Shown: positions 1-64,000 of the stretch, one piece after another | How positions within the stretch are numbered: the stretch's first letter is position 1 | Layout of the letters: every line of letters begins with the position of its first letter | NCBI GenBank assembly: GCA_036273715.1 | Contig: DASUHB010000066.1 | Span: 62,001-126,000 of the forward strand | Direction of reading: 5' to 3' | DNA length: 64,000 bases | Origin: Gemmatimonadaceae bacterium | GTDB lineage: Bacteria; Gemmatimonadota; Gemmatimonadetes; Gemmatimonadales; Gemmatimonadaceae | Notes under the pieces: generated by a model | What the model saw: the letters and a program-made list of their open reading frames with translations, nothing else | What the model was told of the DNA's origin: nothing | Databases searched by the model: none | Program-made: the position numbers and the translations under genes

Positions 1-603
1 GGCTCGCTCGACGAAGACGAGTGGCGGATGGTGTGCAACCACCCGTGGATGGGCGTGCTGCAGCTCTTCCAGATGCGCGGCCAGAACGACATCCCCTACC
101 GCGCCATGGTCGTCGCGTTCGAGCACCACAAGAAGACGGACCTGAGCGGCTATCCGCGCCACGTTAGGCCTCGCGAGCTGAGCATCTACAGCAAAGTGGT
201 GGCCGTGTCCGATGCGTTCGACGCCGCCACGTCGCGGCGCGTCTACCAGACCGTGCCGCTCACGCCCGCCGACGTGCTCCAGGAGATGCGCGTCAACCCG
301 CGCCGCGGCATGGACCAGGTGCTGGTGAAAGCGTTCATGAGTCTCGTCGGCCACTATCCGGTGGGCACGCTGGTCGTGCTCGATACGTTCGAGCTCGCGC
401 TGGTTCATGCGGCCAGCCCCTCCCCGGATTCGATCTCGCGCCCTATCGTAAAGGTCGTCAGCGACGAGCGCGGCAACGTGCTCTTCCCGGGCACGCTCGT
501 GGATCTCACGGAACGGGATGCAGGCGGCGTGTTCAAGCGCACGATCATCAAGGTGGCAGATCCCGACCGCTATGGTATCCGCGTCAGCGACTACTACATC
601 TGA
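1..603 (+). CDS. HD-GYP domain protein, C-terminal part
   Basis: The reading frame is open from base 1 to the TGA at 601-603, so the N-terminus lies outside the window. About 40 residues in it shows HHKKTDLSGYP, which matches the HHExxDGxGYP signature of HD-GYP phosphodiesterase domains, followed by the usual helix (KVVAVSDAFDAATS) that carries a metal-site Asp. Family members hydrolyse cyclic di-GMP, but the first HD metal ligands are upstream of the window, so activity cannot be judged. The last roughly 80 residues form a small beta-rich tail. Its stop lies just inside the start region of trpA, suggesting co-transcription. Confidence 0.75.
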   Translation, partial: GSLDEDEWRMVCNHPWMGVLQLFQMRGQNDIPYRAMVVAFEHHKKTDLSGYPRHVRPRELSIYSKVVAVSDAFDAATSRRVYQTVPLTPADVLQEMRVNPRRGMDQVLVKAFMSLVGHYPVGTLVVLDTFELALVHAASPSPDSISRPIVKVVSDERGNVLFPGTLVDLTERDAGGVFKRTIIKVADPDRYGIRVSDYYI

Positions 604-1381
604 CCCGATCGCTCATACCTTCGCCGCGCTGGCCGAGCAGCGGCGCAAAGCACTCGTTGCCTACATCACCGCAGGACACCCGGACCGCGCGCGATCGCTG
701 GCGCTGATTCGCGCCATCGCGCGCGCCGGCGCCGACATCATCGAAGTCGGTGTGCCGTTCTCGGATCCGTTGGCCGACGGTCCCACCATCCAGGCCAGCT
801 CGCAAACGGCGCTCGCCAATGGCATGACGTTCGACGGAGCGCTCGAGCTCATCAGCGAAGCGGCTGTCGAAGTTCCGACCGTCGTGTTCACGTATCTCAA
901 TCCGCTGCTGGCGGCAGGCCGGGACGCGCTCGTTCGCGCGGCCCGGGCTGGAGCGAGCGGGTTGCTGCTCACCGATCTCCCGGTGGGCGCCGATCCTGAG
1001 CGAGAGGCGCGGATTGCGGCCGGGCCGCTCGCGTTCGTCCGGCTCGTGGCGCCGACGACGCCCGCAGCGCGCATGGCCGACATCGCGCGACACGGCAGCG
1101 GGTTCGTCTATCTCATCAGTCGGTTAGGCGTCACCGGCGCGCGGGACGACATCCCGGCCGATCTGCCGGCCACCGTTGCTCGCCTCCGCTCCGCGACGTC
1201 GCTGCCGATCTGTGTCGGCTTCGGCATCGCCCGGCCGGAGCAGGCGGTGGCCGTCGGACGCCTGGCCGATGGCGTCGCGGTGGGCAGCGCGCTGGTTCGA
1301 CGCGCGGGCGAGAGCGTGGACGCGGCGGCGGCGTTCGTCGCATCGCTCCGCGCCGCGCTCGACGCCGGCGTCCGTGGATGA
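572..1381 (+). CDS. trpA: Tryptophan synthase alpha chain
   Basis: TrpA cleaves indole-3-glycerol phosphate to indole and glyceraldehyde-3-phosphate in the last step of tryptophan synthesis, normally in complex with TrpB. The product is 269 aa, close to the 268 of E. coli. The signature VGVPFSDPLADGPTIQ is present with the catalytic pair Glu58 and Asp69, and the phosphate-binding glycines appear in VGFGI and VAVGSALV. The ATG at 572 overlaps the preceding gene by 32 nt. It was chosen because it gives a normal-length leader before the first beta strand (ALVAYITAG); an ATG at 518 would add 18 unlikely residues. No trpB or other trp gene is nearby. Confidence 0.93.
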   Translation: MVSASATTTSDPIAHTFAALAEQRRKALVAYITAGHPDRARSLALIRAIARAGADIIEVGVPFSDPLADGPTIQASSQTALANGMTFDGALELISEAAVEVPTVVFTYLNPLLAAGRDALVRAARAGASGLLLTDLPVGADPEREARIAAGPLAFVRLVAPTTPAARMADIARHGSGFVYLISRLGVTGARDDIPADLPATVARLRSATSLPICVGFGIARPEQAVAVGRLADGVAVGSALVRRAGESVDAAAAFVASLRAALDAGVRG

Positions 1382-1426
1382 CCTGCCGGTCGGCCTAACG
1401 CATCTCCCCCGAATCCCATCGATGCC

Positions 1427-1945
1427 ATGATTGTCCGCCTCTCGCTCCTGGGCGCGCTCGCGCTCGCCTCGCTGGTCACGGTGTCCGCATCGGCGCAGTA
1501 CGCGCACCCACGCGGCCAACCCATCGATGGCATCGCCTGCGACGCGCTCGAGGGACAGCGCATCCACATTCACCAGCATCTGGCGATCTATGATCACGGG
1601 ACGCCGGTGGACGTGCCGTACGACGTGGGCCGGCCGCACGACGTCCCGTGCCTCTACTGGCTGCACACGCACACGCCGGACGGCATCATCCACATTGAAG
1701 CGCCGGTGAACCGATCGTTCACGTTAGGTAACTTCTTCGACGTGTGGGTGCAGCCGCTGAGCCGGACGGAGGCGGCGAGCGCCGAGCTCGCAGCGGGCGA
1801 GCAGATGCGGGTGTGGGTAAACGGGACGCCGTACACCGGGGACCCGCGGGCCATCGCGCTCGGGAACCACACCGACATCGTGATCGAGGTCGGACGGCCG
1901 TTCGTCACACCGCGGCCGTTCACGGCGTGGAACGGCGCGCAGTGA
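1427..1945 (+). CDS. Secreted protein of unknown function, His-rich motif
   Basis: The protein is 172 aa with a clear Sec signal peptide (MIVRLSLLGALALASLVTVSASA, cleavage near residue 23). The mature part contains IHIHQHLAIYDHG, then YWLHTHTPDGIIHIEAP and FTLGNFFDVWVQP. The paired histidine strings suggest metal binding, but this is inference. I have seen the HTHxxDGIIHIE / FTLGxFFDVW pattern in uncharacterised proteins of several high-GC phyla; no function is established to my knowledge. It sits between trpA (45 nt upstream) and the convergent RqcH-like gene and may be transcribed with trpA. Confidence 0.6.
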   Translation: MIVRLSLLGALALASLVTVSASAQYAHPRGQPIDGIACDALEGQRIHIHQHLAIYDHGTPVDVPYDVGRPHDVPCLYWLHTHTPDGIIHIEAPVNRSFTLGNFFDVWVQPLSRTEAASAELAAGEQMRVWVNGTPYTGDPRAIALGNHTDIVIEVGRPFVTPRPFTAWNGAQ

Positions 1946-1952
1946 CGCGCGC

Positions 1953-3389
1953 CTAACGGGAGTCGCGCAGCGCCCGCTCGAGCGCGTCGTCGGGACGCAC
2001 CATCAGGGTGCGCTCCTCGCGCAGGATCACCGTGCCGGGCGCCGCGCCGCGCGGTTTGCGCACGTGCTTGCGCCGCGTCCAGTCGACCGGTACCACCGCG
2101 GACCCGCGCGCCTTGCTGTGCCAGGCGGCGAGCACCGCGGCTTCGCGGAGATCGCGGGCGGGCGGGGCATCGGCGTTGCTCCAGCGGAGCACGACGTGGG
2201 CGCCGGCCGCGTCGCGCGCGTGCAGCCACACGTCGTTGGGCGCTGCGGCGCCGAAGGTGAGCGCATCGTTCGACGCGGCGCCGCGACCGACCCAGATCGC
2301 CAGGCCGCCCGACGACCGGTACGTCCGATAGGGCAGCCGCGGCGCGGCGCCCGGCGACCGGCCCCCGGGACGGCCGCGCGCGCCTAACTCGGTTGGGCGC
2401 CCGGACGGCGGGCCGGCCGCGGCCGCCTCGAGGCGCGCCGGCAGCAGGGCCAGCGCCCGCTCCTTCGACCGCGCATCGGCGTAGAGACGCGCCGCCGCCG
2501 CCGGCGCCCGCTCGCGCGCCCGCGGCGCAATCGGCCACTCGAGGCCGCCGGGCAGCGACACCACCGCCGGCGCGGGAACGTCGCCCATGGCAAGGAGCAC
2601 GTCGGCCGCCGCGCGCACCCGCGCCGCGTCGCGCGCGCGGTCGAGCTCCCCGCGCATCCGTTCCATGGCGCGCCGCCGTCGCGCATCGATCGGCGCCGTC
2701 GCCGGCGACTCCGGAGCGAGGATCTCGCCGGAGTCGAGCAGAGAGCCGACCAACTCCGCCTCATCGCAGAACGGAAACGGCACGAGCCGCTCGCCGCACC
2801 GCGCCGGATGAGCGGGCGCATCCGAACACATCAGGTGGTAGCGTTCCACGGCGTCAGCCGGATGCGCGATCATCCACGATGCGATGATCGGGCTCATCCA
2901 CCGGCCGCCCAAGAGCGTTGCAGTGTCGCCGGCGCGCGCGGCGGCGGAGAGGGCGTCGTCGACGAGCTCGGGACGCGGCTCGACGCGTGGCGGAAGCTCG
3001 GCCCCGACCGCTTCCAGTTTCGCGCCGCCGGCGTCGCGCAGCACGGCCCCGCGGGCGCGCGGCACCGCGCTCAGGATGAGATCGGCGCGTCGATCCTCCG
3101 AGCCCTTGAACCGACCCGGACGAACCAGCTCGACGACGATCCGGCGATCATCGAGCGGTGCGCGCACGGCACGTACCGTCCATCCGCGCATGACGCCGCC
3201 TGCCCGCTCGAGCGGTCCGGCATCCACTGCCCGGACGTCATCGTGGTCGAGCTCGAACCGCACTGTCCGGCCGTCGACGCCAACGGATACCGCACGCGCG
3301 TCGCGATCGAAGCGGCAGCCGTCGATGCGGCGGCCGCGCCATCGCGCGTCCAGCTCGCGCGCGAGATGCCGAGCGGTCAGGCTGTCCAC
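1953..3389 (-). CDS. rqcH: NFACT / RqcH-like ribosome quality control protein
   Basis: The product is 478 aa with an N-terminal NFACT-N domain and a C-terminal NFACT-R region (RTYRSSGGLAIWVGRG, NDVWLHARDAAGAHVVLR). Bacterial RqcH (Rqc2 homologue) binds stalled 50S subunits and adds alanine tails. The Asp-Arg pair needed for tailing in B. subtilis has a plausible counterpart at Asp81-Arg82 (PLDDRRIVVEL). The protein is about 90 residues shorter than the usual roughly 570, mainly in the central coiled-coil region, which here is Ala/Arg-rich. It is divergent from folK with a 55-bp gap and convergent with the secreted-protein gene. An alternative name is fibronectin-binding-like FbpA. Confidence 0.82.
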   Translation of the reverse strand: MDSLTARHLARELDARWRGRRIDGCRFDRDARAVSVGVDGRTVRFELDHDDVRAVDAGPLERAGGVMRGWTVRAVRAPLDDRRIVVELVRPGRFKGSEDRRADLILSAVPRARGAVLRDAGGAKLEAVGAELPPRVEPRPELVDDALSAAARAGDTATLLGGRWMSPIIASWMIAHPADAVERYHLMCSDAPAHPARCGERLVPFPFCDEAELVGSLLDSGEILAPESPATAPIDARRRRAMERMRGELDRARDAARVRAAADVLLAMGDVPAPAVVSLPGGLEWPIAPRARERAPAAAARLYADARSKERALALLPARLEAAAAGPPSGRPTELGARGRPGGRSPGAAPRLPYRTYRSSGGLAIWVGRGAASNDALTFGAAAPNDVWLHARDAAGAHVVLRWSNADAPPARDLREAAVLAAWHSKARGSAVVPVDWTRRKHVRKPRGAAPGTVILREERTLMVRPDDALERALRDSR

Positions 3390-3444
3390 GACGCGAGGTT
3401 TGACACGCGCGGACGATGCCCGTACGTTCCGGCGCTGTCAACAG

Positions 3445-3870
3445 ATGCGTGACATCGCCTACATCGCGCTCGGATCCAACCTGGGCGACAGAGCCGGATA
3501 TCTGGCCTTCGCCCGCGCGCGGCTTGCGGCGCTTCCGGGAAGCCGCCTCCTCGACGCATCTTCCGTGGAAGAAACCGCTCCGTTGGGAAACATCCCGCAC
3601 GGCGGCGGACCGTACCTCAACCAGATGGTCGCGCTCGAAACGACGCTCGCGCCCCATGTGCTGCTCGACGCCCTGCACAAAATCGAGCACGAGGCAAAGC
3701 GCGAACGCACGATCCGGTGGGGACCGCGGACACTGGACTTGGACATCGTCATGTTCGACGCGCAGACCGTTTCGGATCCGGATCTCACCGTCCCGCACCC
3801 GGGCCTGGGCCACCGCGATTTCTGGGATCGCGAGCTCGCCGAGCTCAGAGCGAAGGCGGGCGATCGATGA
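3445..3870 (+). CDS. folK: 6-hydroxymethyl-7,8-dihydropterin pyrophosphokinase
   Basis: HPPK transfers pyrophosphate from ATP to hydroxymethyl-dihydropterin in folate synthesis. The protein is 141 aa. It opens with IAYIALGSNLGDR, typical of the family, and carries the ATP/Mg motif RWGPRTLDLDIVMFD with the two metal-binding aspartates. The ATG at 3445 was chosen because it is immediately before the first conserved strand. Its stop overlaps the panB start (ATGA), so folK, panB and panC form a B-vitamin transcription unit. Confidence 0.92.
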   Translation: MRDIAYIALGSNLGDRAGYLAFARARLAALPGSRLLDASSVEETAPLGNIPHGGGPYLNQMVALETTLAPHVLLDALHKIEHEAKRERTIRWGPRTLDLDIVMFDAQTVSDPDLTVPHPGLGHRDFWDRELAELRAKAGDR

Positions 3871-4700: not shown

Positions 4701-4701
4701 C

Positions 4702-5550: not shown

Positions 5551-6377
5551 CGTGGAGTGCCGTCGTTGCAGCGCTTGATGACGGCGATACGTTCCGGTCG
5601 CGCGTCAGCGTCTACCTGCATCCGTTAGCCGGCCGGCCGATCGTCTGGCACGTGGTGCGCGCGCTGGAGACGGTGTCACCGGCGCCGGGCCTGGTGCGCG
5701 TGCTGCATCGCGCCAACACGATGTTCGCCATGCCGGAGATGTCGGTGCCGCTGATGATGGACCCGATTCCCGATGGCCAGGAGCTGATCGCGCTGCGCGC
5801 GGCGGTGACGGCGCCCGGGGTCTGCGTGCTCATGGATGGCGCGTCTCCGTTAGTCGCACCGCCGACGATTGCGCGGCTGCTGCGCGCCGGCGAGGGCGGG
5901 ATCGCGGGGCTGCCCGATGCGCAGGCCGACGGGCGGTACATCGCGGTGGGCGGCGAGGGGCCGGCGCTGGCGTCGGCGGAAGACCCGCGGCAGCCCGCGG
6001 GCGCGGTGCGCATCGCCGCGACGTCGCCTGATGAGTTGATCCGCGTGCTCGACCGCCACACGCTCGCCGACGCATCGGTTGCCTTACGGAACCGGCTGGT
6101 GCGCAAGCATGAAGCAGCGGGGGTGAGTTTCGTGCTGCCCGAGACCACGTGGGTCGACGCCGACGTCCGGATCGGCGCCGACAGCGTGATCTATCCGGGC
6201 GCCGTGCTCGAGGGACAGACCGAGATCGGCAGCGAGTGCGTGATCGGTCCGTACACGCGCATCGTCGATGCGTCCATCGGACGCGGGGCAGAGCTCAAGG
6301 GGTGGAACTACGTCGCGCGCACCAGCATCCGGAACCACGCCGTCCTCGAGCCGTATGTGCGACGCGGCTTCGATTGA
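5547..6377 (+). CDS. GlmU-like protein with degenerate nucleotidyltransferase loop and hexapeptide-repeat tail
   Basis: The product is 276 aa starting at a GTG overlapping the panC stop. Residues after about 20 resemble GlmU (YLHPLAGRPIVWHVVRALE), and the last 80 residues are left-handed beta-helix repeats (RIGADSVIYPGAVLEG, GSECVIGPYTRI). The G-loop that defines the pyrophosphorylase (LAAGxGTRMxS) is absent: the N-terminus reads WSAVVAALDDGDTFRSRV instead. The helix is short and lacks the acetyltransferase histidine region of full-length GlmU (about 450 aa). It may be a non-catalytic or altered sugar-nucleotide protein. Function unknown; the family resemblance is clear. Confidence 0.65.
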   Translation: MTWSAVVAALDDGDTFRSRVSVYLHPLAGRPIVWHVVRALETVSPAPGLVRVLHRANTMFAMPEMSVPLMMDPIPDGQELIALRAAVTAPGVCVLMDGASPLVAPPTIARLLRAGEGGIAGLPDAQADGRYIAVGGEGPALASAEDPRQPAGAVRIAATSPDELIRVLDRHTLADASVALRNRLVRKHEAAGVSFVLPETTWVDADVRIGADSVIYPGAVLEGQTEIGSECVIGPYTRIVDASIGRGAELKGWNYVARTSIRNHAVLEPYVRRGFD

Positions 6378-9286: not shown

Positions 9287-11083
9287 ATGACAGCCAATTC
9301 CACCGAGGCAACGACACTCCGGAGCCGCCGCTGCGGCTCGCTTCGCGCCGCCGATGCCGGCTCCGACGTTCGGTTAGGCGGCTGGGTCCACGGCAAACGC
9401 AATCTGGGCGGACTCGTGTTTCTCGACCTGCGCGACCGCGACGGCATCGTCCAGGTGTCCGTCGATCCGGCGCTGGTGGGGGAGGCGGTCCGCGACGCCG
9501 CAGCCGCGGTGGGCAAGGAGAGCGTCGTGCTCGTCGAGGGAGAAGTCGCGCGCCGGCCGCCGGCCGGCGAGAACCACGACATGGCGACCGGAGAGATCGA
9601 GGTCAAGGCGCGCAGCGTGCGCGTCGTTGGCCCAGCGGTCACACCCGCGATTCCCGTTGGGCGCGCCAAGGGGGAAGCGCTGCCGTCCGAGGAGCAGCGG
9701 CTGCGCCATCGCTATCTCGATCTGCGCCGGCCCGAGCTCCAGCGGAACATCATCCTCCGGCACCGGTTGATGCAGACGGCCCGCCGCTATCTCGCGGGCG
9801 AAGGCTACCTCGAGATCGAGACGCCGATTCTCACCAAGCCGACGCCGGAAGGCGCGCGCGACTACATCGTGCCGAGCCGGCTGCACAAGGGCGAGTTCTA
9901 CGCGCTGCCGCAGTCGCCGCAGCTCTACAAGCAGCTGCTGATGGTGTCGGGCTTCGACCGGTATTTCCAGATCGCGCGGTGCTTCCGGGACGAAGACCTG
10001 CGCGCCGAGCGGCAGCCCGAGTTCACGCAGATCGACATCGAGGCGTCGTTCGTCCAGCAAGCGGACATCGTCCGCCTAACGGAAGGATTGTTCGTCGAGC
10101 TGTGGCGAGAGGGCGGCCACGCGATCGCGGCGCCGTTCGAGCACCTGACGTACGCCGACGCGATGGAGCGCTACGGCAGCGACCGTCCGGACCTGCGCTA
10201 CGGGCTCGAGCTGTTCGATGCGACCGCCATCTTCGGCGCGACCGAGCTTGGCATTGCGCGCTCCGCGATCGCGGCCGGCGGCCGGGTCCGGGGAATACGG
10301 GTGCCCAAGGGCGCGTCCCTGTCTCGCAAGCAGGTGGACGAGCTCGAGGTGCTGGCCAAGGGGGCGGGCGCGGGCGGCCTGCTGCGACTCAAGCGCGAAG
10401 GCAGCGAGCTCACGGGGCCGCCGGCCAAGTTCCTCGATGCCGGGGCGCGCGATCGGCTGGCGCTGGCCGATGGCGATCTCGCCCTGTTCGCGGCGGGCGC
10501 GGACCGTGTCACGAACGCGGCGCTCGACCGCGTGCGCCAGGAGACCGCGCGCCTGTTAGGCATCGTCCCCGACGGCATGCTGCGCTTTCTCTGGGTGACG
10601 GACTTCCCGATGTTCGAGTGCGACCCGGCGACCGGCGCGTTAGGCCCGACGCATCACCCGTTCACCGCGCCGCAGCCCGATGATGCGCGCTTGCTCGAGA
10701 CGGATCCGCTGCGCGCGCGGGCGCAGGCGTACGACGTCGTGCTCAACGGCATGGAGTTGGGCGGCGGCAGCATTCGCATCCACGATCCGGAGATGCAGCG
10801 GCGCGTGTTCTCGCTCATCGGCATCGACGAGGAGACGGCACAGCGGCGCTTCGGCTTCCTGCTCGAGGGGCTTCGCTCGGGCGCGCCGCCGCACGGTGGC
10901 ATCGCGATGGGCGTCGACCGCATCGCGATGCTGCTCGCGGGCGCGGGCTCGCTGCGCGACGTCATCGCTTTCCCGAAGACGACGACGGCGAGCGCGTTGT
11001 TCGAGGGCGCGCCGAGTCCGGTGCCCGAGGCCGACCTCCGTACGCTGCACGTGCGCATCGCGAACGGCGCCGGCGAGGAGTGA
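9287..11083 (+). CDS. aspS: Aspartyl-tRNA synthetase (bacterial type)
   Basis: The 598-aa protein has the OB-fold anticodon domain (GWVHGKRNLGGLVFLDLRDRDG), the class II core with KPTPEGARDYIVPSR, ALPQSPQLYKQLLM, CFRDEDLRAERQPEFTQID and the C-terminal GxGxGxDR-type motif (AMGVDRIAMLL). The bacterial-specific GAD insertion is present between motifs 2 and 3, explaining the length. It charges tRNA-Asp; whether it is also active on tRNA-Asn cannot be decided by eye. It heads a run of eight tightly packed plus-strand genes. Confidence 0.96.
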   Translation: MTANSTEATTLRSRRCGSLRAADAGSDVRLGGWVHGKRNLGGLVFLDLRDRDGIVQVSVDPALVGEAVRDAAAAVGKESVVLVEGEVARRPPAGENHDMATGEIEVKARSVRVVGPAVTPAIPVGRAKGEALPSEEQRLRHRYLDLRRPELQRNIILRHRLMQTARRYLAGEGYLEIETPILTKPTPEGARDYIVPSRLHKGEFYALPQSPQLYKQLLMVSGFDRYFQIARCFRDEDLRAERQPEFTQIDIEASFVQQADIVRLTEGLFVELWREGGHAIAAPFEHLTYADAMERYGSDRPDLRYGLELFDATAIFGATELGIARSAIAAGGRVRGIRVPKGASLSRKQVDELEVLAKGAGAGGLLRLKREGSELTGPPAKFLDAGARDRLALADGDLALFAAGADRVTNAALDRVRQETARLLGIVPDGMLRFLWVTDFPMFECDPATGALGPTHHPFTAPQPDDARLLETDPLRARAQAYDVVLNGMELGGGSIRIHDPEMQRRVFSLIGIDEETAQRRFGFLLEGLRSGAPPHGGIAMGVDRIAMLLAGAGSLRDVIAFPKTTTASALFEGAPSPVPEADLRTLHVRIANGAGEE

Positions 11084-29038: not shown

Positions 29039-29224
29039 CGTCGTCGCCGGAAACCGCCGGCCGTCCAGGCAACGAAAAATCCGGGAAACGATCTCGAATT
29101 AGGCGGGTACTGGCACTGGCCAGCCCGTTCGCGGATTCATACCAACGACCTGAAGCAGACCGCGGTCGGGCATGTTGTCCGGTTCGGTTGTTGCTGAACG
29201 AAGGCCTCACAGGGAGGAGTAGAC

Positions 29225-30178: not shown

Positions 30179-32680
30179 ATGCCTCCACAGCGCGTTCCCG
30201 AGCTGCTCTCGCCGGCCGGCTCGCTCGACGCCGTGCGCGCGGCGTTGGCCAACGGAGCCGACGCGGTCTATCTGGGCGCCGAGCGGTTCAACGCGCGCGA
30301 CGAGGGAGCGCAGCTCACGCCGGACGATCTCGCCGAGGCGTGCCGGCTCGCGCGCTCGCGCGGACGACGCATCTATCTCACGCTCAACACGCTGGTCAAA
30401 CCGTCGGAGCTGGCGGACGCGCTGACATTGTTAGGCGAGTGCCTCGACCGCGGCATCCACGCCGCGATCGTCCAGGACCTGGGGCTCGTCCGCCTGGCGC
30501 AGCAGGTCTATCCGGGCGTCGAGCTCCACGGCTCGACGCAACTCACGGTGCACGATCCGGACGGCGCCGCCTTTCTGTCTGCGTTAGGCATCGAGCGCGT
30601 GGTGCTCGCCCGCGAGAACACCCTCGACGATATCGACGTCATCCACAGGGCGGTCCCCGGCCTGCTGCTCGAGTCGTTCGTCCATGGCGCGCTCTGCATC
30701 TCGTACTCGGGCCAATGTCTCATGTCGGGCATGATCTCCGAGCGGAGCGCGAACCGCGGGTCGTGCGCCCAGTCGTGCCGGAAGGACTATGTGCTCACCG
30801 ACGCGGCGAGCGGCGAGACGCTCGACAGCGGTTTTCTCATCTCGGCCAAGGACCTGGCGGCGCACGAACACCTGGACGCGATTGCGCGCGCCGGCATCCA
30901 CACACTCAAGATCGAGGGTCGGAAGAAGCGGCCCGAGTACGTGGCGACGGTCACGCAGAGCTATCGCACGTCGCTCGACCGGCTGTCCCGCGGCGAGCCG
31001 TTTCTGCCCGACGGCGACGAGCGTCGCGACCTGGTGCAGATCTTCAGCCGCGGCTTCACCGGCGGCATGTACGGCGGCCGCGCGGGCCGCGAGTACGTGA
31101 CGCGCGATCAGCCGGACAACCGAGGGGTGGAGCTCGGCGTCGTGGTGGGTCACGACCGCGCGGCGCACCTCGTGGAGGTGACGGCGCCGCTGGCCGCGGG
31201 CGACGGCATCGTGCTCCTTCCGCCTAACGGAAGCATCGGAGCGCCGAACGGTGCCGCCGCCACCGATGTGCGAACGCTCGCCCAACGCGACGGCATCGTC
31301 AGACAGGCGGTCACCGCGCCGCTGCGCGGCCGGGCGCCCGTTGGGTGGCGCGTCTTCCGGACGTCGCACAACGCGCTGCTGGCGCGCGCACGCGAGAGCT
31401 TCGCCGGCGTGGCGTCCGGCACAGGCGGCGGGCGCGTCCGCCTCGACGTCCGCGCCGCCGGCAGCGCAGGCGCGCCGCTCGAGCTGACGTTCGGCGCGGG
31501 CTCGGACCACATCGCGGTGCGCGGCGAGGCGCCGCTCGCCCCGGCGCGGGCGCACGCCCTCGATGAGGCGCAGCTCCGCCAGCAGCTGGGCCGGTTAGGC
31601 GAGACGCCGTTCGCCCTCGGCGCCGTCGACACCACCGCGCTCGAGCCGGGATTGTTCCTCCCCGTGCGGGAGCTCAACACGATGCGCCAGCGCGCCGTGG
31701 CCGAGCTCGCCCGCATGCGCGCCGCGGCGCACGAGCACCGCGTGATCGCGCGGCGCGCCGCCATTCAAGCCGCGGTCGCGCACGTACCCGTGTACGATGC
31801 CGGCCCAGCGCGCGGCGTCGCCATATATGTGCTGGCTGCCGACGTCCACACGCCGGACGATGCGCGCGCCGCCGCCGACGCCGGCGCCACCGAAATTACC
31901 TTCGACCCGTTCCTCCGCCACCCGGTGCCGCCGCGGGCGCGCATCGTCGCGTTAGGCGAAGAGCTCGCCGCGCGCGGCATCGCCTTCCGCCTGCGCACGC
32001 CGACCATCGTGCGGCCCGAGGAACGCCGCGACGTCGACCGATGGCTCGACCTCGGCCTCCCCCTCCTGTCCGGACACGCCGGACTCGTCGCATCGCTCGG
32101 CGCCCGTGGACGGGACGTCGTCGCCGATTACGCCGTCAACTGCTTCAACCAGCACAGTGCAGCGGTGCTGTTCGATCACGGCGCGCGCCGCATCACGCTC
32201 TCCGTCGAGCTCACCGTGGGCGAGATCGCCGAGCTGGTGGCGCCGTGGTCCGGCCGCGGATTCGACGCCGTCGTGTACGGCCGGCCGGAGGGCATGACCA
32301 TCGAGCACTGTGTGCTCTCGGCCGCGTTCAACCGGGAACCGACGACGTGCCGCGACCTGTGCGTGCAGAAGCATCCACGCGTCGAGCTCACCGACCCGGC
32401 CGGCTACACATTCCCCGTGGCCACCGACTCCGCCTGCCGCAACCGCTTGTTGCACTCGCGTCCCATCGAAGCCTCCGAGTTTCTGCCCCAGCTCTGGAGC
32501 CTGGGACTCCGCGGGTACCGCATGGTGTTCAACATGCCTGGCGATCCGGTGGCGGAGCTCGTGGCGCGCACCCGCGCCGCGCTCGATGCGCTGCACGGCC
32601 ACGAGCCGGCTGCGTTAGGCGATATCCGCGCGCTGGTCGGCACACGGTTCACGCGCGGCCATTTCGTGCGCGCCGTGTAA
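30179..32680 (+). CDS. U32 family peptidase/RlhA-like protein
   Basis: The 833-aa protein starts with the U32 barrel (PELLSPAGSLDAVRAALANGADAVYLGAERFNAR) and contains the U32 signature around ESFVHGALCISYSGQCLMS with conserved cysteines (GSCAQSCRKDY). A DUF3656-like middle region and a second U32-type region (FNREPTTCRDLCVQKHPRVELTDPAGYTFPV) follow. Related proteins such as RlhA hydroxylate C2501 of 23S rRNA and others act on tRNA or ubiquinone. At 833 aa it is longer than E. coli RlhA (about 650 aa). Specific role undetermined. Confidence 0.82.
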   Translation: MPPQRVPELLSPAGSLDAVRAALANGADAVYLGAERFNARDEGAQLTPDDLAEACRLARSRGRRIYLTLNTLVKPSELADALTLLGECLDRGIHAAIVQDLGLVRLAQQVYPGVELHGSTQLTVHDPDGAAFLSALGIERVVLARENTLDDIDVIHRAVPGLLLESFVHGALCISYSGQCLMSGMISERSANRGSCAQSCRKDYVLTDAASGETLDSGFLISAKDLAAHEHLDAIARAGIHTLKIEGRKKRPEYVATVTQSYRTSLDRLSRGEPFLPDGDERRDLVQIFSRGFTGGMYGGRAGREYVTRDQPDNRGVELGVVVGHDRAAHLVEVTAPLAAGDGIVLLPPNGSIGAPNGAAATDVRTLAQRDGIVRQAVTAPLRGRAPVGWRVFRTSHNALLARARESFAGVASGTGGGRVRLDVRAAGSAGAPLELTFGAGSDHIAVRGEAPLAPARAHALDEAQLRQQLGRLGETPFALGAVDTTALEPGLFLPVRELNTMRQRAVAELARMRAAAHEHRVIARRAAIQAAVAHVPVYDAGPARGVAIYVLAADVHTPDDARAAADAGATEITFDPFLRHPVPPRARIVALGEELAARGIAFRLRTPTIVRPEERRDVDRWLDLGLPLLSGHAGLVASLGARGRDVVADYAVNCFNQHSAAVLFDHGARRITLSVELTVGEIAELVAPWSGRGFDAVVYGRPEGMTIEHCVLSAAFNREPTTCRDLCVQKHPRVELTDPAGYTFPVATDSACRNRLLHSRPIEASEFLPQLWSLGLRGYRMVFNMPGDPVAELVARTRAALDALHGHEPAALGDIRALVGTRFTRGHFVRAV

Positions 32681-42853: not shown

Positions 42854-43135
42854 ATGGCTCACAAGAAAGGCGTAGGCTCGAGCCGCAACGGTCGCGACAG
42901 CGGCCCAAAGTATCGCGGCGTGAAAAAGTTCGGCGGCGAACGCGTGCGCGCCGGCAACATCATCGTCCGCCAGTGCGGCACCAAGATCCATCCCGGCCGC
43001 AACGTCGGCCTCGGCACCGACTTCACGATCTATTCGCTCATCGACGGCGTCGTGAAGTTCGAGCACAAGAACAAGCTGCGGTTCAAGGTGTCCGTGTATC
43101 CCGATAACCGGGAAGCAGCAGCCGGCGCCGCCTGA
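42854..43135 (+). CDS. rpmA: 50S ribosomal protein L27
   Basis: The 93-aa protein begins [16 protein letters not shown], the unprocessed L27 N-terminus that reaches the peptidyl-transferase centre, and continues with [31 protein letters not shown]. Normal length plus a few C-terminal residues. Confidence 0.97.
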
Positions 43136-43178
43136 ACAGCACCGCGCCTAACGGCGTTCGGACAACCCGCAAGGGAAA

Positions 43179-43282: not shown

Positions 43283-44575
43283 TCAGGGCTTCCCGTAGCT
43301 CGGCGGCAGCTGCTCGTACCGCTTCGTCAACAGATCCTGCCGCGACACGTCGTTCTGCTTCTTTCCGTGCACGTAGACCGCAACCGCTCGCGTCGCAAAC
43401 TCGAACGGATCGCCATCCCACACCACGACGTTTGCTTCGTGGCCCGCCTGCAGCGTGCCGATCTTGTCGGCCACGCCGAAGATCTCGGCCGGCGCCTGCG
43501 TGATCGCCTTGAGCGCGTCATTCCACGACAGGCCGTAGCCCACCGCGTTCCCGGCTTCGTACCGGATGTTGCGCACGTTGAACAGCGATTCGTCGCCGGC
43601 GCCGTTGCCGATGAGCGCCACCTCGACCCCCGCCTTCCGCAACAGCGCCACGTTGTCCTGGCGGGCGCCTAACGTGCTGAACGAGCTCGGAATGTTCGAC
43701 TCCGCGCCGGCCAGCACCGGGATCTTCGCGGCCGCCAACCGGTCGGCCACTTCCCAGGCCTCCTCGCCGCCGCCGATGATGACCTTGATCCCGAATTCCT
43801 TTGCGAGATCGATCGCCGACTGAATGTCGCTCGCCTGGTCCGCGTTGATGAGCAACGGCACTTTGCCCTCCAACACCGGCACCAGCGCGGCCAGCGACCC
43901 CGGATTCAAGGGCATCTGGCGAGATTGGCCGCGATCGAATTCGGCGACGTGCTTCTGGTAGTACCGCGTGTCCTGCAGGATCTCGCGCAGTTTGGCGATC
44001 TGCTGGCCCTTGGCCGGCGCGCCATCGCCGCCTTCATCGCCGATGCTCGCGATCATCGCGGCCGGCGCGCGCAGAATCATCTCGGCGCGCGTGTCGCCGA
44101 ACAGATCGATCATCGCCGCCTGTCCGGCAATGAGGCCGCCGCCCGGCGTCGACATCACGCTCGTGACGCCCTCCTCGCGCGCCGGCGGAATCAACACCGA
44201 GCGCGGATTGAGTCCATCCCACGACGTGAAATCCGGCGTGATGCCTTGCTCGCTGCGCGCGCGCGACTCGTTCGCCCCGGCCCCGAACCCGACCTCGACC
44301 AGTCCTAACTGCGTCTCCGCGTCGACCAACCCGGGTGTCACCCATTTGCCCGATGCATCCACTTTCTCGGCGTCTGCCGGAACGGTGATGTTGGCGCCGA
44401 CGGCGACGATCTTGCCGTCCTTGATCAGCACCGTCCCGTTTTCGATCGGCGGACCGCTCACCGGATACACCTTGCCCCCGGTGATCGCGACCGTCTGCGC
44501 CGCCAGCGTGCTAACGGGAGCGATGAACGCGGCCGCGCATGCGGCGGCCATGACGTACAGCGTGCGCGATGTCAT
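43283..44575 (-). CDS. Exported amidohydrolase-like protein lacking the HxH metal motif
   Basis: The 430-aa protein has a signal peptide (MTSRTLYVMAAACAAAFIAPVSTLAA) and the imidazolonepropionase-like fold outline: TGGKVYPVSGPPIENGTVLIKDGKIVAVG and the closing EIFGVADKIGTLQAGHEANVVVWDGDPF. At the first metal site, where the family has PGLIDxHxH, it reads PGLVDAETQLG, so both histidines are missing; the next site reads LLINADQ instead of a His. It is probably catalytically inactive or uses other ligands. It overlaps the intact paralogue upstream by 4 nt, suggesting a heteromer. Confidence 0.75.
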   Translation of the reverse strand: MTSRTLYVMAAACAAAFIAPVSTLAAQTVAITGGKVYPVSGPPIENGTVLIKDGKIVAVGANITVPADAEKVDASGKWVTPGLVDAETQLGLVEVGFGAGANESRARSEQGITPDFTSWDGLNPRSVLIPPAREEGVTSVMSTPGGGLIAGQAAMIDLFGDTRAEMILRAPAAMIASIGDEGGDGAPAKGQQIAKLREILQDTRYYQKHVAEFDRGQSRQMPLNPGSLAALVPVLEGKVPLLINADQASDIQSAIDLAKEFGIKVIIGGGEEAWEVADRLAAAKIPVLAGAESNIPSSFSTLGARQDNVALLRKAGVEVALIGNGAGDESLFNVRNIRYEAGNAVGYGLSWNDALKAITQAPAEIFGVADKIGTLQAGHEANVVVWDGDPFEFATRAVAVYVHGKKQNDVSRQDLLTKRYEQLPPSYGKP

Positions 44576-55566: not shown

Positions 55567-55587
55567 TCCACCCCCCAGCAGGCTTTC

Positions 55588-56236: not shown

Positions 56237-56888
56237 GTGTCCGCGGGACGACATGCGGGATCGCTTGCCCGACCTGCTCCACGAGCGGTTGGACCCGGCG
56301 ACGCGCGCCGAGGTGGCGCGGCACGTCGCGTCATGCGCCGCGTGCGCGGAAGAGCTCGAGCTCCTGCGCTCCATGCGGCGCGCGTTGTCGACCGCGCCGC
56401 AGGTGGATGCGGCCCGGATCGCGGCGGCGCTGGCCGCCTCGCGGGCGGCGGCGCCGGCCGAGCCTAACGTTAGGCAGCTGGCTCCCCGCGCCGCGCCTCG
56501 GGCCGGCCGGCGCGCCGCGTGGCGCATCGCCGCGGCGTTGGTCATCGCGGCGCTCGGCGTGAGCGGCTGGCTGCTCGTGCATCGCCTCCCGGGCGCGCCC
56601 GCGCTTCCGGTGGCAGCCGCGCCGTCGCACGTCGACTCGACGGCCGCCGCGCCCACCGTGGTGGCCGCGGGGCCGCGCGGGCCGAGCCATTCACATGCCG
56701 TGGCCGCGCCGCCGGCGCCGCCGACGCTGCTCGCCAGCCGACCCGGTCTCGTCATGGATGGCGGCGTGACCGACCTGTCCGACGGCGACATGCGGATGCT
56801 GCTCCAGTCGCTGGATAGTCTCTCGGCCGTCCCGGACGCCGACCCCGCGCCGATGAGTTATCAGATCGACGACGGCGGTGTGCAATGA
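56229..56888 (+). CDS. Membrane anti-sigma factor with zf-HC2 domain
   Basis: The 219-aa protein starts with an anti-sigma zinc motif (HVASCAAC, HxxxCxxC) followed by a helix-rich segment, one membrane helix near 95-120 (AAWRIAAALVIAALGVSGWLLV) and an outside Ala/Pro-rich tail ending in GGVTDLSDGDMRMLLQSLDSL. This topology fits release of the sigma factor by proteolysis or conformational change. It overlaps the sigma gene (8 nt) and the Spy-like gene (4 nt). Codons 79-83 (PNVRQ) include two fused TTAGGC motifs. Confidence 0.85.
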   Translation: MSECPRDDMRDRLPDLLHERLDPATRAEVARHVASCAACAEELELLRSMRRALSTAPQVDAARIAAALAASRAAAPAEPNVRQLAPRAAPRAGRRAAWRIAAALVIAALGVSGWLLVHRLPGAPALPVAAAPSHVDSTAAAPTVVAAGPRGPSHSHAVAAPPAPPTLLASRPGLVMDGGVTDLSDGDMRMLLQSLDSLSAVPDADPAPMSYQIDDGGVQ

Positions 56889-57424: not shown

Positions 57425-57550
57425 CGTCGCTGCGCTCTCGAGGGGAGGGAAGGGGCGGCCAGTCAGTTGCCCTCCGCAGGAAATTGCGTCGGTCGGCGCG
57501 TGCTTCATGCGGTTGAGCCGAACTCACCGGGGCGCTAGATTGCGCCTCGC

Positions 57551-57634
57551 GCCCGGGTGGCGGAACTGGTAGACGCACGGGACTCAAAATCCCGCGCCGG
57601 CAACGGCATGCGAGTTCGATTCTCGCCTCGGGCA
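57551..57634 (+). tRNA. tRNA-Leu(CAA)
   Basis: The sequence folds into a cloverleaf: acceptor GCCCGGG with CTCGGGC (one G-T pair), anticodon stem CGGGA/TCCCG around CTCAAAA (anticodon CAA, reading TTG), a long variable arm (class II) and a T arm containing GTTCGATTC. Length 84 nt; CCA is not encoded. It cannot read TTA, which is the codon of the frequent TTAGGC motif. Confidence 0.95.
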
Positions 57635-57730
57635 CTTCCACGTTAGGCACAACGCCGGTCCGGGTTGCCATCCGCGCCGCCCGTGCGCTGCGTTCGCGTC
57701 TGCGACTTCCCCCCGCATCCACCACGTACC

Positions 57731-59254: not shown

Positions 59255-59378
59255 CATCGTAGTCGGCGCCGCTGGGCGCAGAGTCGGTTTGTACCGACGG
59301 GTGTGACTCGACCGCCCGACTCGACGTCCTTTCGAGAGGACCGCTCTCGAATTCTCGCTCACGACTCGCCGGACACCA

Positions 59379-60116: not shown

Positions 60117-60141
60117 CCACCTGCGGCACACCGGAGCCCCA

Positions 60142-61218
60142 ATGACGCTACGAGACTTCATCAGCGGCGAGCTGGTCGACATCATCGAATGGCCCGACCA
60201 GACCGATACGACGATGGCCTGGCGGTTCTCGCGCCCCAACAACGAAATCAAGAACGGCGCCCAGCTCATCGTTCGGCCCGCGCAGACGGCGATGCTCATC
60301 GACCAGGGACGTATCGCCGACGTCTACCAGCCCGGCCGCCACGAGCTCTCGACCGCCAACATGCCGGTGTTGTCGCGGTTCGAAGGATGGAAATACGGCT
60401 TCGCGAGTCCGTTCAAGGCGGACGTGCTCTTCCTCAGCACGCGGCAATTCGTCGACCAGAAGTGGGGCACGACCAACCCGGTGATCGTACGCGATGCCCA
60501 ACTGGGACCGGTTCGCCTGCGCGCCTACGGCACCTACGCCATGCGCCTCGTCAACCCGCGCAAGTTCGTCGAGCAACTGAGCGGTACGACGGGCGACTTC
60601 GCGACCGATCGCATCGCCGACCAGATGCGCGACCTGATCGTTGCCAAAGTCAGCGGCGTCCTCGCCGAGGGCAGCATCTCGATCTACGAGCTGTCGGCAA
60701 AGTACGCCGAGGTCGGCGCGGCGGTCCAGCAGCGCGTGGCGCCGCAGTTCGACCAATACGGGTTGAGCATCACGCAATTCGTGATCGAGAACGTCTCACT
60801 GCCGTCGGAGGTCGAGTCGACGCTCGATCAACAGACGCGCATGAGTATGCTCCGCGGGCAGCTCGATACGTACACACAGCTGCAGAGCGCCGATGCGATT
60901 CGCGATGCGGCGCGCAATCCAAGCGGCGGCGCGGCAGCCGGCGTGGGTATCGGTATGGGCGCGGCGCTCGGACAGCGCGCCGCCGCGGCAGCCGCAGCGC
61001 CGGCCCCGGTGGTGGGCGCGTACGAGCCGCCGCCGCTCCCCGCGGTTGCCTGGTACTATGCCGTGGGCGGCGAGCGCAGAGGACCGGTGGATCAGAGCGC
61101 GCTCGCAGCGCCGGGCACGCTGACCGCCGAGACCCTGGTGTGGCGGCACGGCATGACAGGGTGGACGGCGGCCGGCCAGGTTCCGGAGCTGGCAGCGCTG
61201 TTCCCGCCTAACCGTTAG
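60142..61218 (+). CDS. SPFH-domain protein (YdjI-like) with C-terminal GYF_2 domain
   Basis: The 358-aa protein begins with the YdjI/virion-core-protein-like SPFH region (FISGELVDIIEWPDQTDTTMAWRF, LIVRPAQTAMLIDQGRIADVY, SRFEGWKYGFASPFKADVLFLSTRQF) and ends, after a Gly/Ala linker, with WYYAVGGERRGPVDQSAL, a GYF_2-type domain. B. subtilis YdjI is a membrane-stress SPFH protein. The stop codon lies within a palindromic pair of TTAGGC motifs. The zinc-ribbon gene is upstream in the same operon; function unknown. Confidence 0.8.
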   Translation: MTLRDFISGELVDIIEWPDQTDTTMAWRFSRPNNEIKNGAQLIVRPAQTAMLIDQGRIADVYQPGRHELSTANMPVLSRFEGWKYGFASPFKADVLFLSTRQFVDQKWGTTNPVIVRDAQLGPVRLRAYGTYAMRLVNPRKFVEQLSGTTGDFATDRIADQMRDLIVAKVSGVLAEGSISIYELSAKYAEVGAAVQQRVAPQFDQYGLSITQFVIENVSLPSEVESTLDQQTRMSMLRGQLDTYTQLQSADAIRDAARNPSGGAAAGVGIGMGAALGQRAAAAAAAPAPVVGAYEPPPLPAVAWYYAVGGERRGPVDQSALAAPGTLTAETLVWRHGMTGWTAAGQVPELAALFPPNR

Positions 61219-61236
61219 GCAGCCGGCGGCCATCCA

Positions 61237-62304
61237 TCAGCGGGGTTTCGCCCGCAGATATTGCGGCGGCCACCGCACCTCCTGGCCGAGCTCGCGCGCG
61301 GCATCGAGGGGCCAGTGCGGGTGGCGCAACAGCTCGCGCGCCATCACCACCAGATCCGCCTGGCCCGAGCGCACGATCGTATCGGCCTGCGCCGCACCCG
61401 TGATGAAGCCCACCACCGCCGTTCGGACACCGGACTCCCGCCGGATCCGCTCCGCGAATCCAACGTGGTAGCCCGGGCCGGTGGGAATCTGCACATGCGG
61501 CACGACGCCGCCTGAGCTGCAGTCGATGGCATCGACGCCCGATTCGCCTAACCGGCGAGCCAGCGCGATCGACTCGTCGACCGTCCAGCCGTCGTCGCGC
61601 CAGTCCGTCACCGACAGCCGCGTTAGAAGCGGCAAGCGCTCCGGCCATACCTCGCGCACGCCCGCCGCCACCTCGAGCGTGAGGCGGATCCGATTCTCGA
61701 ACGAGCCGCCGTAGCTGTCGGTGCGCACGTTCGATAACGGCGATAGAAATTGGTGCAGCAGGTATCCGTGCGCCGCGTGCAGCTCCAGCGCGTCCATGCC
61801 GGCTGCCAGCGCGCGTGCGGCCGCCTCGCGAAACGCCGACACGATGCGCGCGATCCCGCGGGTGTCCAACGCATCCGGCGTCTGATACTTCTCGGCAAAG
61901 GGCAGCGCGCTCGGCGCCGTGAGATGCGTCCAGCCTCCCGCATCGACACCCACCGGCCCGCCGTCTTCCCAGGGCCGGCCGGTGCTCGCCTTGCGACCCG
62001 CGTGCGCCAGCTGCATCCCGAACACCGCGCCCTGCGATTTTACGAACCGCCCGATGCGCGCCAGCATCTCCACGTGTGCGTCATCCCAGATACCGAGGTC
62101 CTGCGGACTGATGCGCCCGTCCCGGGTGACGGCGGTGGCTTCCGTTAGGACCATGGATGCGCCGCCCGACGCAAACTGGCCGAGGTGCACGAGGTGCCAG
62201 TCCGTCGCCAAGCCGTCGGTGCTCGAGTACTGGCACATGGGCGAGACGACGATCCGATTGCGCAGCGCGACGCCGCGCAGCGTCAGTGGGGCAAAGAGAG
62301 ACAT
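61237..62304 (-). CDS. namA: NADPH dehydrogenase NamA-like (old yellow enzyme family)
   Basis: The 355-aa flavoenzyme matches YqjM/NamA: NRIVVSPMCQYSSTDGLATDWH with the regulatory Cys and Tyr, QLAHAGRKASTGRPW, ELHAAHGYLLHQFLSPLSN (active-site HxxH) and R-SGQADLVVMARELLRHPHWP at the end. It reduces activated alkenes, nitro compounds or quinones with NADPH. It is convergent with the SPFH gene (18 nt) and alone on its strand with the DUF3052 gene. Confidence 0.92.
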   Translation of the reverse strand: MSLFAPLTLRGVALRNRIVVSPMCQYSSTDGLATDWHLVHLGQFASGGASMVLTEATAVTRDGRISPQDLGIWDDAHVEMLARIGRFVKSQGAVFGMQLAHAGRKASTGRPWEDGGPVGVDAGGWTHLTAPSALPFAEKYQTPDALDTRGIARIVSAFREAAARALAAGMDALELHAAHGYLLHQFLSPLSNVRTDSYGGSFENRIRLTLEVAAGVREVWPERLPLLTRLSVTDWRDDGWTVDESIALARRLGESGVDAIDCSSGGVVPHVQIPTGPGYHVGFAERIRRESGVRTAVVGFITGAAQADTIVRSGQADLVVMARELLRHPHWPLDAARELGQEVRWPPQYLRAKPR

Positions 62305-62337
62305 GCGTGATGTGAACGGGTCGACGAGGGAGGGACG

Positions 62338-62742
62338 TTATCGCAGCGCTTTTCTGACCACGAGCTTGAGCCCCGACCAGGTGTCATCCACGGCGCACAC
62401 TTTCACGTCGACGAAACCGAGAGGAAGCGCGAGCGCGCGCACCGTGTCTTCGGTGATGTCCGTTGCCACCCTGGCCGACTGCTTCGGCCACGACACCCAG
62501 ACCGTCGCCGATGGGCCCAGCGTCCGGCGGTATCGCTCGAGTGCTGTCCCGAGCTGCGCCGCGTGCGTTGCGAACACGTGCACGATGTCCGTGTTCCGCG
62601 TCGCGCGGGCGACGAGCGTCACGCCATCGGGGAGCGGGTGGAGCAGGGCGGCGTAGTCGCCGGGCGCACCGGATGCGTGCAGCGACATGCCGGCTTTGAT
62701 GCCGAGCTTGGCGACGAGCGGTGTCCCGGAATACGCAGCCAT
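62338..62742 (-). CDS. DUF3052-family protein
   Basis: The 134-aa protein starts at an ATG preceded by GGAGGG. It carries the DUF3052 pattern: LVAKLGIKAGMSL..LLHPLPDGV, FATHAAQLGTALERYRRTLGP and WVSWPKQSARVATDITEDTVR, ending VDDTWSGLKLVVRK. No biochemical function is known to me for this family. A GTG 12 nt upstream is possible but adds nothing conserved. It lies 33 nt before namA in the same direction. Confidence 0.8.
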   Translation of the reverse strand: MAAYSGTPLVAKLGIKAGMSLHASGAPGDYAALLHPLPDGVTLVARATRNTDIVHVFATHAAQLGTALERYRRTLGPSATVWVSWPKQSARVATDITEDTVRALALPLGFVDVKVCAVDDTWSGLKLVVRKALR

Positions 62743-63076
62743 GTCTCCCTCCACAAGGTGTGCCCGGGCAAGTTTGCTGCGTCCCGCGCCTCAATTCAAT
62801 ACAATGAGTGCAGCCGGCCGAACGGCTATCCGTTAGGCGAAGGCGGCTGCGCCGGTATGGGCGTCCGGACACACGCCGGTCACCTGGTGCAATACGGCCG
62901 GAACCACAGGGGTTCCGTGTGGTAGAAACCGCGGTAACTTCCAGCGGATTTCGGCCTCTCGCCTCAGCCCGCGCCTATCGGGGTTCGCGGTGCTCGCGTG
63001 AGATTCGGTTCATCACCTGCCGGAGCGCGCGCGGCACTGCCGCGTTCGCTCCGTTGCTCACTGTGGAGCCCGGACA
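62743..63076. other. Divergent intergenic region between DUF3052 and pepA genes
   Basis: These 334 bp should carry both promoters. An A+T-rich pocket (about 62790-62807) near the DUF3052 start and a small hairpin (GGAACC 62900-62905 with GGTTCC 62911-62916) are the only structures seen. One TTAGGC copy lies at 62831-62836. No coding gene is supported. Confidence 0.4.
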
Positions 63077-64000
63077 ATGCCCCTTCGTGTCAGCACACGC
63101 CGGTCCGCCGCCGACTCCGTCGATGTTCCGCTGCTCGTCCTGGCGTTGCGAAAACATCCGACTGTGGCGCCCGGTCTCGCGGCGCTCGACGCGAAGCTGG
63201 GCGGAGCGCTGTCCCGCACCCTGGATCGCCGCGAGTTCCGCGGCGCGCGCGATGAGGTGCTGCACCTGGCGGGCGCCGCGGGAATGGCGAACCCGCAGCG
63301 CGTGCTGCTGGTTGGGTTAGGCGATCCGTCGGACGCCGCCGGCGCGCTGCGCCGCGCGGCGAGCATCGCGGCGCGCCATGCGCGAAAGCTCGGGGCGGCT
63401 GCGCTCGCCTGGTACGACGGCAGCCGCGGCGACGAATCGGTCGAAGCGGTGACGGTGGGACTGCTGGCCGGCGCCTGGGAATACGCCGACCTGAAGACGC
63501 CGCCGCCGGCGGATGAGCGTCGCCCAGAGCTCGAGTCGGCCGTGATTCTGTGCGATGACGAGGCGGCGCCGCAAGCTGTCGAGCGCGGAATGGCGATCGG
63601 CGAGGGAATGGCGCTCGCCCGCCGGCTCGCCATGATGCCGGGCAACCTGTGCACACCGGACTATCTCGCCGGCGTCGCGCGAGAGATCGCCGCGCGTCAC
63701 CAAATGCAGGTCACCGTCCTCGGCCGCGCCGAGCTCGAGCAGGAGAAGATGGGATCGTTTCTCTGCGTCGCGCAGGGGACGCCGCAGGATCCGAAGTTGA
63801 TCGCGCTCGAGTACCGTCGCGGACGCGCGGACGCGCAACCGATCGCGCTCGTGGGCAAGGGGCTGTGTTTCGACTCGGGCGGGATCTCGATCAAGCCGGC
63901 GCAGGGCATGGAGGCCATGAAGTTCGACATGTGCGGCGCGGCCGGTGTGTTAGGCGCGATGGACGCGATCGCGCGGCTCGCGCTGCCGGTGAACGTCATC
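63077..64000 (+). CDS. pepA: Leucyl aminopeptidase (M17), N-terminal part
   Basis: The frame is open from the ATG at 63077 (preceded by GGAG) to the window edge, 308 codons. It shows the N-terminal macro-like domain (HLAGAAGMANPQRVLLVGLGD) and the start of the M17 catalytic domain: ARRLAMMPGNLCTPDYLA and VGKGLCFDSGGISIKPAQGMEAMKFDMCGAAGV, including the conserved Lys/Asp metal and substrate residues. The C-terminal half is outside the window. The enzyme removes N-terminal residues from peptides in the cytosol. Confidence 0.92.
   Translation, partial: MPLRVSTRRSAADSVDVPLLVLALRKHPTVAPGLAALDAKLGGALSRTLDRREFRGARDEVLHLAGAAGMANPQRVLLVGLGDPSDAAGALRRAASIAARHARKLGAAALAWYDGSRGDESVEAVTVGLLAGAWEYADLKTPPPADERRPELESAVILCDDEAAPQAVERGMAIGEGMALARRLAMMPGNLCTPDYLAGVAREIAARHQMQVTVLGRAELEQEKMGSFLCVAQGTPQDPKLIALEYRRGRADAQPIALVGKGLCFDSGGISIKPAQGMEAMKFDMCGAAGVLGAMDAIARLALPVNVI

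Follow-up and report, generated by a model that had tools for sequence, protein, structure and literature searches.

The window, a stretch of 64,000 bases (bases 62001-126000 of contig C66; GC 68%), belongs to G000, a metagenome-assembled genome (MAG) of the family Gemmatimonadaceae in the phylum Gemmatimonadota (4.34 Mb, 81 contigs, 98.7% complete). Its genes and gaps are strewn with the heptamer GTTAGGC (GCCTAAC on the opposite strand), which has the appearance of a genome-wide DNA signal not described before and whose behaviour appears comparable to that of the uptake tags of Neisseria and Haemophilus.

GTTAGGC in the window and in the source genome

A preliminary description of the window had reported about 100 copies of TTAGGC, mostly GTTAGGC. 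Exact matching gave 103 copies (61 on the + strand and 42 on the - strand), 100 of which carried the leading G (59 on + and 41 on -), so that the observation was confirmed and proved stronger than claimed. TTAGCC/GGCTAA was rightly called scarce, with exactly three occurrences at 5625, 37145 and 52820. The gap sites cited at the time exist at 29099, 43146, 57642 and 62832, but the first of them reads ATTAGGC. The positions are given in Table 1. With the aspartyl-tRNA synthetase (AspRS) gene, the motif lies within a conserved core gene. The product of this gene had its nearest matches, at 64-67% identity, in Gemmatimonadaceae and Gemmatimonadetes MAGs of the named collection, which places the genome in the phylum. 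The inverted pair GCCTAACCGTTAGGC might act as a hairpin terminator.

Table 1. Motif copies and motif-bearing features of the window (gene calls are approximate).
Feature	Position	Strand	Evidence or remark
GTTAGGC, 59 copies	first base (G): 163 1123 4346 5376 7013 9373 10555 10639 11334 11847 12996 13482 14986 15772 15990 16194 17013 17043 17608 18978 19230 22609 23845 24430 24545 25560 26376 26978 27364 27787 30430 30583 31594 31951 32614 33245 34046 35185 35719 37921 38297 40996 43236 45895 48568 49188 53712 55816 56469 57037 57184 57642 58123 58264 59981 61214 62832 63316 63949	+	exact matches
GTTAGGC, 41 copies (GCCTAAC on +)	first + strand base: 1393 1951 2382 6467 7566 8166 10074 13983 18070 19916 21210 22204 28162 31222 34246 37428 38601 40255 40453 41332 43146 43667 44611 46652 47272 47335 47844 48737 50076 50818 50992 51519 52104 53063 53606 53807 54320 56462 58837 61206 61546	-	exact matches
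Aspartyl-tRNA synthetase gene, 4 motif copies (2.2/kb)	9287..11083	+	Pfam tRNA-synt_2, E 5e-117; motif count
Peptidase U32 family gene, 6 motif copies (2.4/kb)	30179..32680	+	densest among the long genes tabulated
GCCTAACGTTAGGC, two abutting motif copies	56462..56475		one of only two perfect abutting inverted pairs genome-wide
GCCTAACCGTTAGGC, inverted pair	61206..61220		where convergent genes 60142-61218 (+) and 61237-62304 (-) meet
Motif immediately 3' of tRNA-Leu(caa) 57551-57635	57642..57648	+	non-protein-coding example
Motif in gap between genes 42854-43135 and 43283-44575	43146..43152	-	
ATTAGGC	29098..29104	+	one of only three window TTAGGC without leading G
TTTAGGC	45380	+	without leading G
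TTTAGGC	49914	-	without leading G

Most word statistics were obtained on 355 kb of the source genome and on roughly 430 kb of the cultured Gemmatirosa kalamazoonensis KBS708 (G021). An order-2 Markov model predicted 2.6 copies of GTTAGGC in the window against the 100 observed (Poisson P about 1e-118) and 13.5 copies in the 355 kb against 508. The whole genome holds 5785 copies (2845 on + and 2940 on -), about one per 750 bases and with no overall strand bias, compared to 850 copies of the reversed-word control. The density of 1.43/kb is approx. 190-fold higher than the 0.0076/kb found in about 395 kb of motif-less Gemmatimonadaceae, which places GTTAGGC among the strongest 7-mer enrichments known to us. 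The Markov check of order 4-5 proposed in the preliminary description was run but was uninformative: at maximal order, 100.1 copies were expected in the window for 100 observed, since GTTAG, TTAGG and TAGGC are themselves largely motif and the test masks its own signal. The valid tests are instead the controls for codon context, related genomes and spacing, all of which show an excess or non-randomness.

GTTAGGC/GCCTAAC is asymmetric, i.e. not palindromic, and its preferred context is CGTTAGGCR. Words that differ from GTTAGGC by one base were enriched at certain positions only, namely as GTTGGGC, GTTAGNC, GTTAGGA and TTTAGGC. This pattern is of the kind that graded recognition by a protein would be expected to leave. 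The commonest of the one-off forms, GTTGGGC, was enriched about 4-fold and not depleted.

Reading frames and codon context

GTTAGGC is a DNA-level signal and not a codon choice. Genes were taken from a simple gene caller. The 508 copies in the 355 kb were distributed over four reading frames, with 290 as xxG-TTA-GGC (Leu-Gly), 71 as G-CCT-AAC, 45 as GC-CTA-AC and 17 as GTT-AGG, while 85 were located within gaps or at gap edges. The density was about equal in coding sequence and gaps. When the codon before a Leu-Gly pair ended in G, the pair was spelled TTA-GGC 290 times out of 650; with A, C or T as the last base of that codon, this spelling was used only 5 times out of 292 (P about 1e-50). 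The motif accounted for 290 of the 368 TTA codons. Codon preference is ruled out as the cause by this preceding-codon control, as the preliminary description had maintained.

Spacing and conservation of the sites

The copies are spaced more evenly than random placement would give. The coefficient of variation (CV) of the gaps between them was 0.850 compared to 1.017 for random placement, and none of 2000 shuffles was as low. For about 55 control 7-mers of similar count, the CV averaged 1.10 and was never below 0.94. Gaps of less than 200 bp numbered 74 with 126 expected. Gemmatirosa showed the same trend more weakly (CV 0.935, a value reached by 2% of shuffles). Mutations that arise independently of one another would not be expected to space the copies evenly, and a benefit saturating within a few hundred bases would give it.

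In the sister species G001 (about 83% DNA identity), 35 of 44 motif sites were identical, while the background for 7-mers was 33% and the matched Leu-Gly word GCTCGGC was kept at 18 of 41 sites. In the deeper comparison with G002, the motif was kept at 17 of 54 sites, which is modestly above the background of 22% and equal to GCTCGGC. The sister genomes are fragmented and the turnover counts are therefore small. Where G001 and G005 differed from the motif, only 5 of 23 sites were one base off against 54% expected (P 0.002).

Motif-rich genera hardly share their sites. The source genome and Gemmatirosa, though both rich, had none of 66 in common, and the numbers were 2 of 30 for G025 and 3 of 42 for G035. 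At the positions aligned with motif sites, other genera often had GCTCGGC or CCTCGGC, which differ from the motif by two or three bases. As the sites are mostly unshared between rich genera and the aligned states lie several changes off, the gains were independent and multi-step. The preliminary description had also considered a directed mutation of GTTGGGC. A single directed or hypermutable change of GTTGGGC to GTTAGGC would agree with GTTGGGC being the commonest one-off form and the likely last step before the motif. However, this form is enriched rather than depleted, non-motif aligned sites differ by at least two bases more often than the background, and independent mutation should not give even spacing. 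Directed mutation is ruled out by the GTTGGGC enrichment together with the aligned states, and, with ordinary codon usage opposed by the preceding-codon control, an origin of the motif in either of the two is considered very improbable.

The density of the motif rose with the codon typicality of the genes, from 0.63/kb in the least typical fifth to 1.76/kb in the most typical one, and the share of TTAGGC among xxG-Leu-Gly rose from 18% to 52-61%. Codon-atypical genes thus contained the motif at about one third of the density. No correlation with codon typicality was seen for the remaining TTA codons. Taken together, conservation in the sister species, even spacing and the highest density in native-looking genes show that the motif is held site by site by a selective or driving force.

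Distribution in the phylum

The comparison with related genomes, which the preliminary description had suggested, covered 99 relatives and 346 genomes of the phylum. It showed the excess in the whole source genome and in several relatives and revealed an on/off pattern that is patchy within the order Gemmatimonadales. Motif-rich were the source genus (G001, G002, G004 and G005) as well as G021, G025, G050, G032, G035 and G054. Intermediate levels were found in the genera g6, g12, g26, g29 and g34 and in genus g48 of a second family. The motif was near absent in most remaining genomes and low in all further orders and classes that were sampled. Mapped on a tree of AspRS, the only gene used, presence and absence of the motif require nine or more switches, of which four are imposed by branches with good support. 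The core is the same across genera; C is the favoured preceding base, and the base that follows is usually a purine.

G003, listed in the same genus as the source, lacked the motif, but its sampled contigs (L133-L138) have a GC content of 47% whereas the other four members have 67-70%. It is probably misbinned or misplaced and was therefore dropped as a motif-less case within the genus.

Replicons and orientation

Gemmatirosa carries 5148 copies of the motif. Its chromosome, its megaplasmids and a 21-kb high-copy element with integrase and primase genes are equally dense in it. The element (L152; L158 1-14513) is circular, and its integrase gene is accompanied by primase-like ones; a roughly 15-kb unit of it is also found in the chromosome and a diverged part on plasmid 1. 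No viral relative of it was close enough to tell if the motif also occurs in phages.

In the half of the Gemmatirosa chromosome with mostly + genes, the motif was in sense orientation in 43 of 55 cases in + genes and in 15 of 20 cases in - genes, a small sample with unmapped replichore boundaries. In this sample, the orientation follows the gene strand and not the replichore, which speaks against the polarity of a Chi-like signal or of FtsK-orienting polar sequences (KOPS), both of which the preliminary description had listed.

A signal akin to Chi, at which a helicase-nuclease (AddAB/RecBCD/AdnAB type) or another DNA-degrading defence stops or changes its activity, would serve self-protection and recombination, and all resident DNA, plasmids and satellites included, would gain from one copy per stretch. 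The equal density on the three kinds of replicon, the even spacing and the lower density in codon-atypical, presumably recent DNA are consistent with it. GTTAGGC also resembles Chi of RecBCD/AddAB as a short asymmetric over-represented word on all replicons, and known Chi words are of about the size of an asymmetric 7-mer. They are, however, enriched only a few-fold and not about 190-fold, while GTTAGGC is enriched by a factor of tens to hundreds and its orientation in the Gemmatirosa sample showed no polarity with replication. Such a role is regarded as unlikely.

The motif may alternatively be the binding site of another abundant DNA-binding protein, for instance one that organises the nucleoid or compacts the chromosome and requires sites at intervals of a few hundred bases. 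Even spacing, missing polarity and the graded tolerance of one-off forms fit any sequence-specific binder. We know of no nucleoid-type protein that imposes thousands of strict 7-mers inside coding sequence, and little probability is given to this explanation as well.

Methylation and repair bias

The preliminary description had named a methylation target as a possible cause, and this is disfavoured. The published methylome of Gemmatirosa, obtained by single-molecule real-time (SMRT) sequencing, lists only RGATCY, ATGCAC and CCAGN7TCA (PMC3974934). GTTAGGC is absent from these motifs, although SMRT detects 5mC poorly. The C5 methylase family PF00145 was not found in G000, G021, G025, G035, G033 and G038, i.e. 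it is missing in the source genome and in three other motif-rich genomes among them. PF01555 was not found in G000, G021, G025, G010 and G038; the Dam-type family PF02086 was not searched. Relatives of the sole Eco57I-like methylase of the source genome occur in all Gemmatimonadaceae that were sampled, whether or not they carry the motif, and the motif-bearing G096 has none. In the families and genomes covered, the distribution of C5, N4/N6 and MmeI/Eco57I-type methylases does not match that of the motif, which is strong though not complete evidence against them as the cause. GTTAGGC is apparently unmethylated.

The Eco57I-like methylase itself (L280; G000 contig C34, about 22405) has a length of roughly 1050-1200 aa. 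It was present in every sampled Gemmatimonadaceae genome, which suggests an orphan enzyme belonging to the core set of this family.

A by-product of repair is a related explanation. A methyltransferase would mark the word or a part of it, and mismatch repair would ratchet one-off words into the motif, which would have no function of its own. Such a ratchet was proposed by Elhai for HIP1 (GCGATCGC) of cyanobacteria (PMC4390886), a word that is likewise extremely enriched at about one copy per kb genome-wide and patchily replaced among relatives. The co-enrichment of GTTGGGC is in agreement with it. HIP1, however, is palindromic and tied to GATC/CGATCG methylases, whereas GTTAGGC is asymmetric, is not among the methylated motifs of Gemmatirosa (PMC3974934) and is not tracked by PF00145, PF01555 or the Eco57I-like methylase. 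A bias of this type is therefore judged distinctly unlikely.

Integrons

GTTAGGC is identical to the common form of the attC core (GTTRRRY), and with GCCTAAC it forms the core consensus. Binding or secondary-site activity of an integron integrase might thus have selected or created the dispersed copies. In favour of this, attC arrays of related genomes have precisely the pair GCCTAAC...GTTAGGC at a distance of about 85 bp, and the source genome has an integron integrase (375.7 bits). Integrases above the cut-off were detected in 50 of the 99 Gemmatimonadales genomes. However, more than 20 of the genomes with an integrase are motif-less (e.g. G007, G017, G024 and G026), and the motif-bearing G096 has no integrase above the family cut-off. 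The dispersed copies also arise singly by base substitution in conserved genes and not by cassette insertion or as pairs 80-130 bp apart. In the window, single dispersed sites were found and not paired inverse attC cores 60-130 bp apart; attC arrays were seen only elsewhere. An integrase as the cause is largely ruled out by this phyletic pattern, and the link is hardly credible.

Classic attC cassette arrays (GCCTAAC...GTTAGGC about 83-90 bp apart) were present in G074 (L145 100-192 on contig C109), G059 (contig C43) and G097 (contig C5).

A possible self-DNA signal of the uptake type

Among the causes named in the preliminary description, an uptake-like or otherwise protein-bound sequence is kept as possible. 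The argument against codon preference stood, and some of the other candidates are disfavoured. We tentatively favour, as a reading somewhat short of even probability and drawn by analogy, a genome-wide self-DNA signal kept by biased uptake and recombination, like the DNA uptake sequences (DUS) of Neisseriaceae and the uptake signal sequences (USS) of Pasteurellaceae. It is preferred because conservation, a benefit that saturates with distance, the bias to native-looking genes, the lack of polarity and the graded tolerance of one-off forms match it.

According to this proposal, the short asymmetric word would be read by a putative sequence-specific protein, and uptake and recombination into the chromosome would favour fragments that carry one copy or more. 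New copies born by mutation would spread and decayed ones would be overwritten, so that copies might accumulate up to about one per typical fragment (about 0.75 kb). In a lineage that loses the reader, the motif would erode, which would lead to the patchy distribution.

GTTAGGC shares with DUS and USS the thousands of copies at about one per kb, the asymmetry, the lack of strand preference, the presence in genes and gaps and the conservation between sister species; its density and its spacing of roughly one per kb resemble those described for the known signals (PMC3630211, PMC7811141). A bias to native or core genes, described for the same signals, is suggested by the threefold lower density in codon-atypical genes, but the high-copy element and the megaplasmids of Gemmatirosa are no poorer in the motif than its chromosome. 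The source genome has the gene of the uptake channel ComEC, as does every other motif-bearing genome sampled.

Several points weigh against this proposal. Of 21 genomes with or without the motif, 20 had ComEC. As it is nearly universal in motif-less relatives too, it does not explain the on/off difference and was ruled out as the discriminating gene. The motif has 7 bp compared to 9-12 bp for DUS and USS. Inverted pairs, which serve as terminators among those signals, are not in excess: only two perfect abutting pairs exist genome-wide, and the 355 kb contain 4 inverted (-+) pairs within 12 bp, with short gaps not in excess. Mobile elements in Neisseriaceae tend to lack DUS, whereas the Gemmatirosa megaplasmids and the satellite element are as rich in GTTAGGC as the chromosome. 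Finally, DUS and USS drift as dialects, while the present motif is switched on or off with one core word, and the second family shares the identical core with motif-less lineages in between.

The motif may alternatively represent an independent class of signal that is neither methylated nor an uptake tag nor Chi-like and polar. It would be an asymmetric 7-mer by which a putative Gemmatimonadota system recognises DNA as self, be it the chromosome, a megaplasmid or the resident satellite, and it would have been switched on and off repeatedly as the order evolved. This possibility is taken seriously but is rather unlikely.

No open-licence paper in PMC was found to report GTTAGGC as a motif of the genomes of these bacteria. 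Only a small number of sequence signals with thousands of copies in a bacterial genome are known, and several of them led to a mechanism (transformation, repair or segregation). GTTAGGC belongs to one of the major phyla of soil, of which few members have been cultured. Its presence in the cultured, sequenced and methylome-typed Gemmatirosa kalamazoonensis makes experimental study feasible, and the on/off pattern among close relatives offers comparative genomics a natural design in the search for a reader protein. An uptake tag, if the motif is one, would to our knowledge be without precedent in the phylum and would imply natural transformation there.

Additional sequence observations

Two other words, CGAGCAG/CTGCTC and CTCGAG, were moderately over-represented in the window and in many relatives, in motif-bearing and motif-less Gemmatimonadaceae alike. 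Contig C60 of the source genome (L018; 2294 bases) reads as GC 0.00 and is probably masked to N. Short tandem arrays of the heptanucleotide AGGTATC were present in another Gemmatimonadota MAG (L022 5609-5643 and 11757-11791) and look like ordinary satellite repeats.

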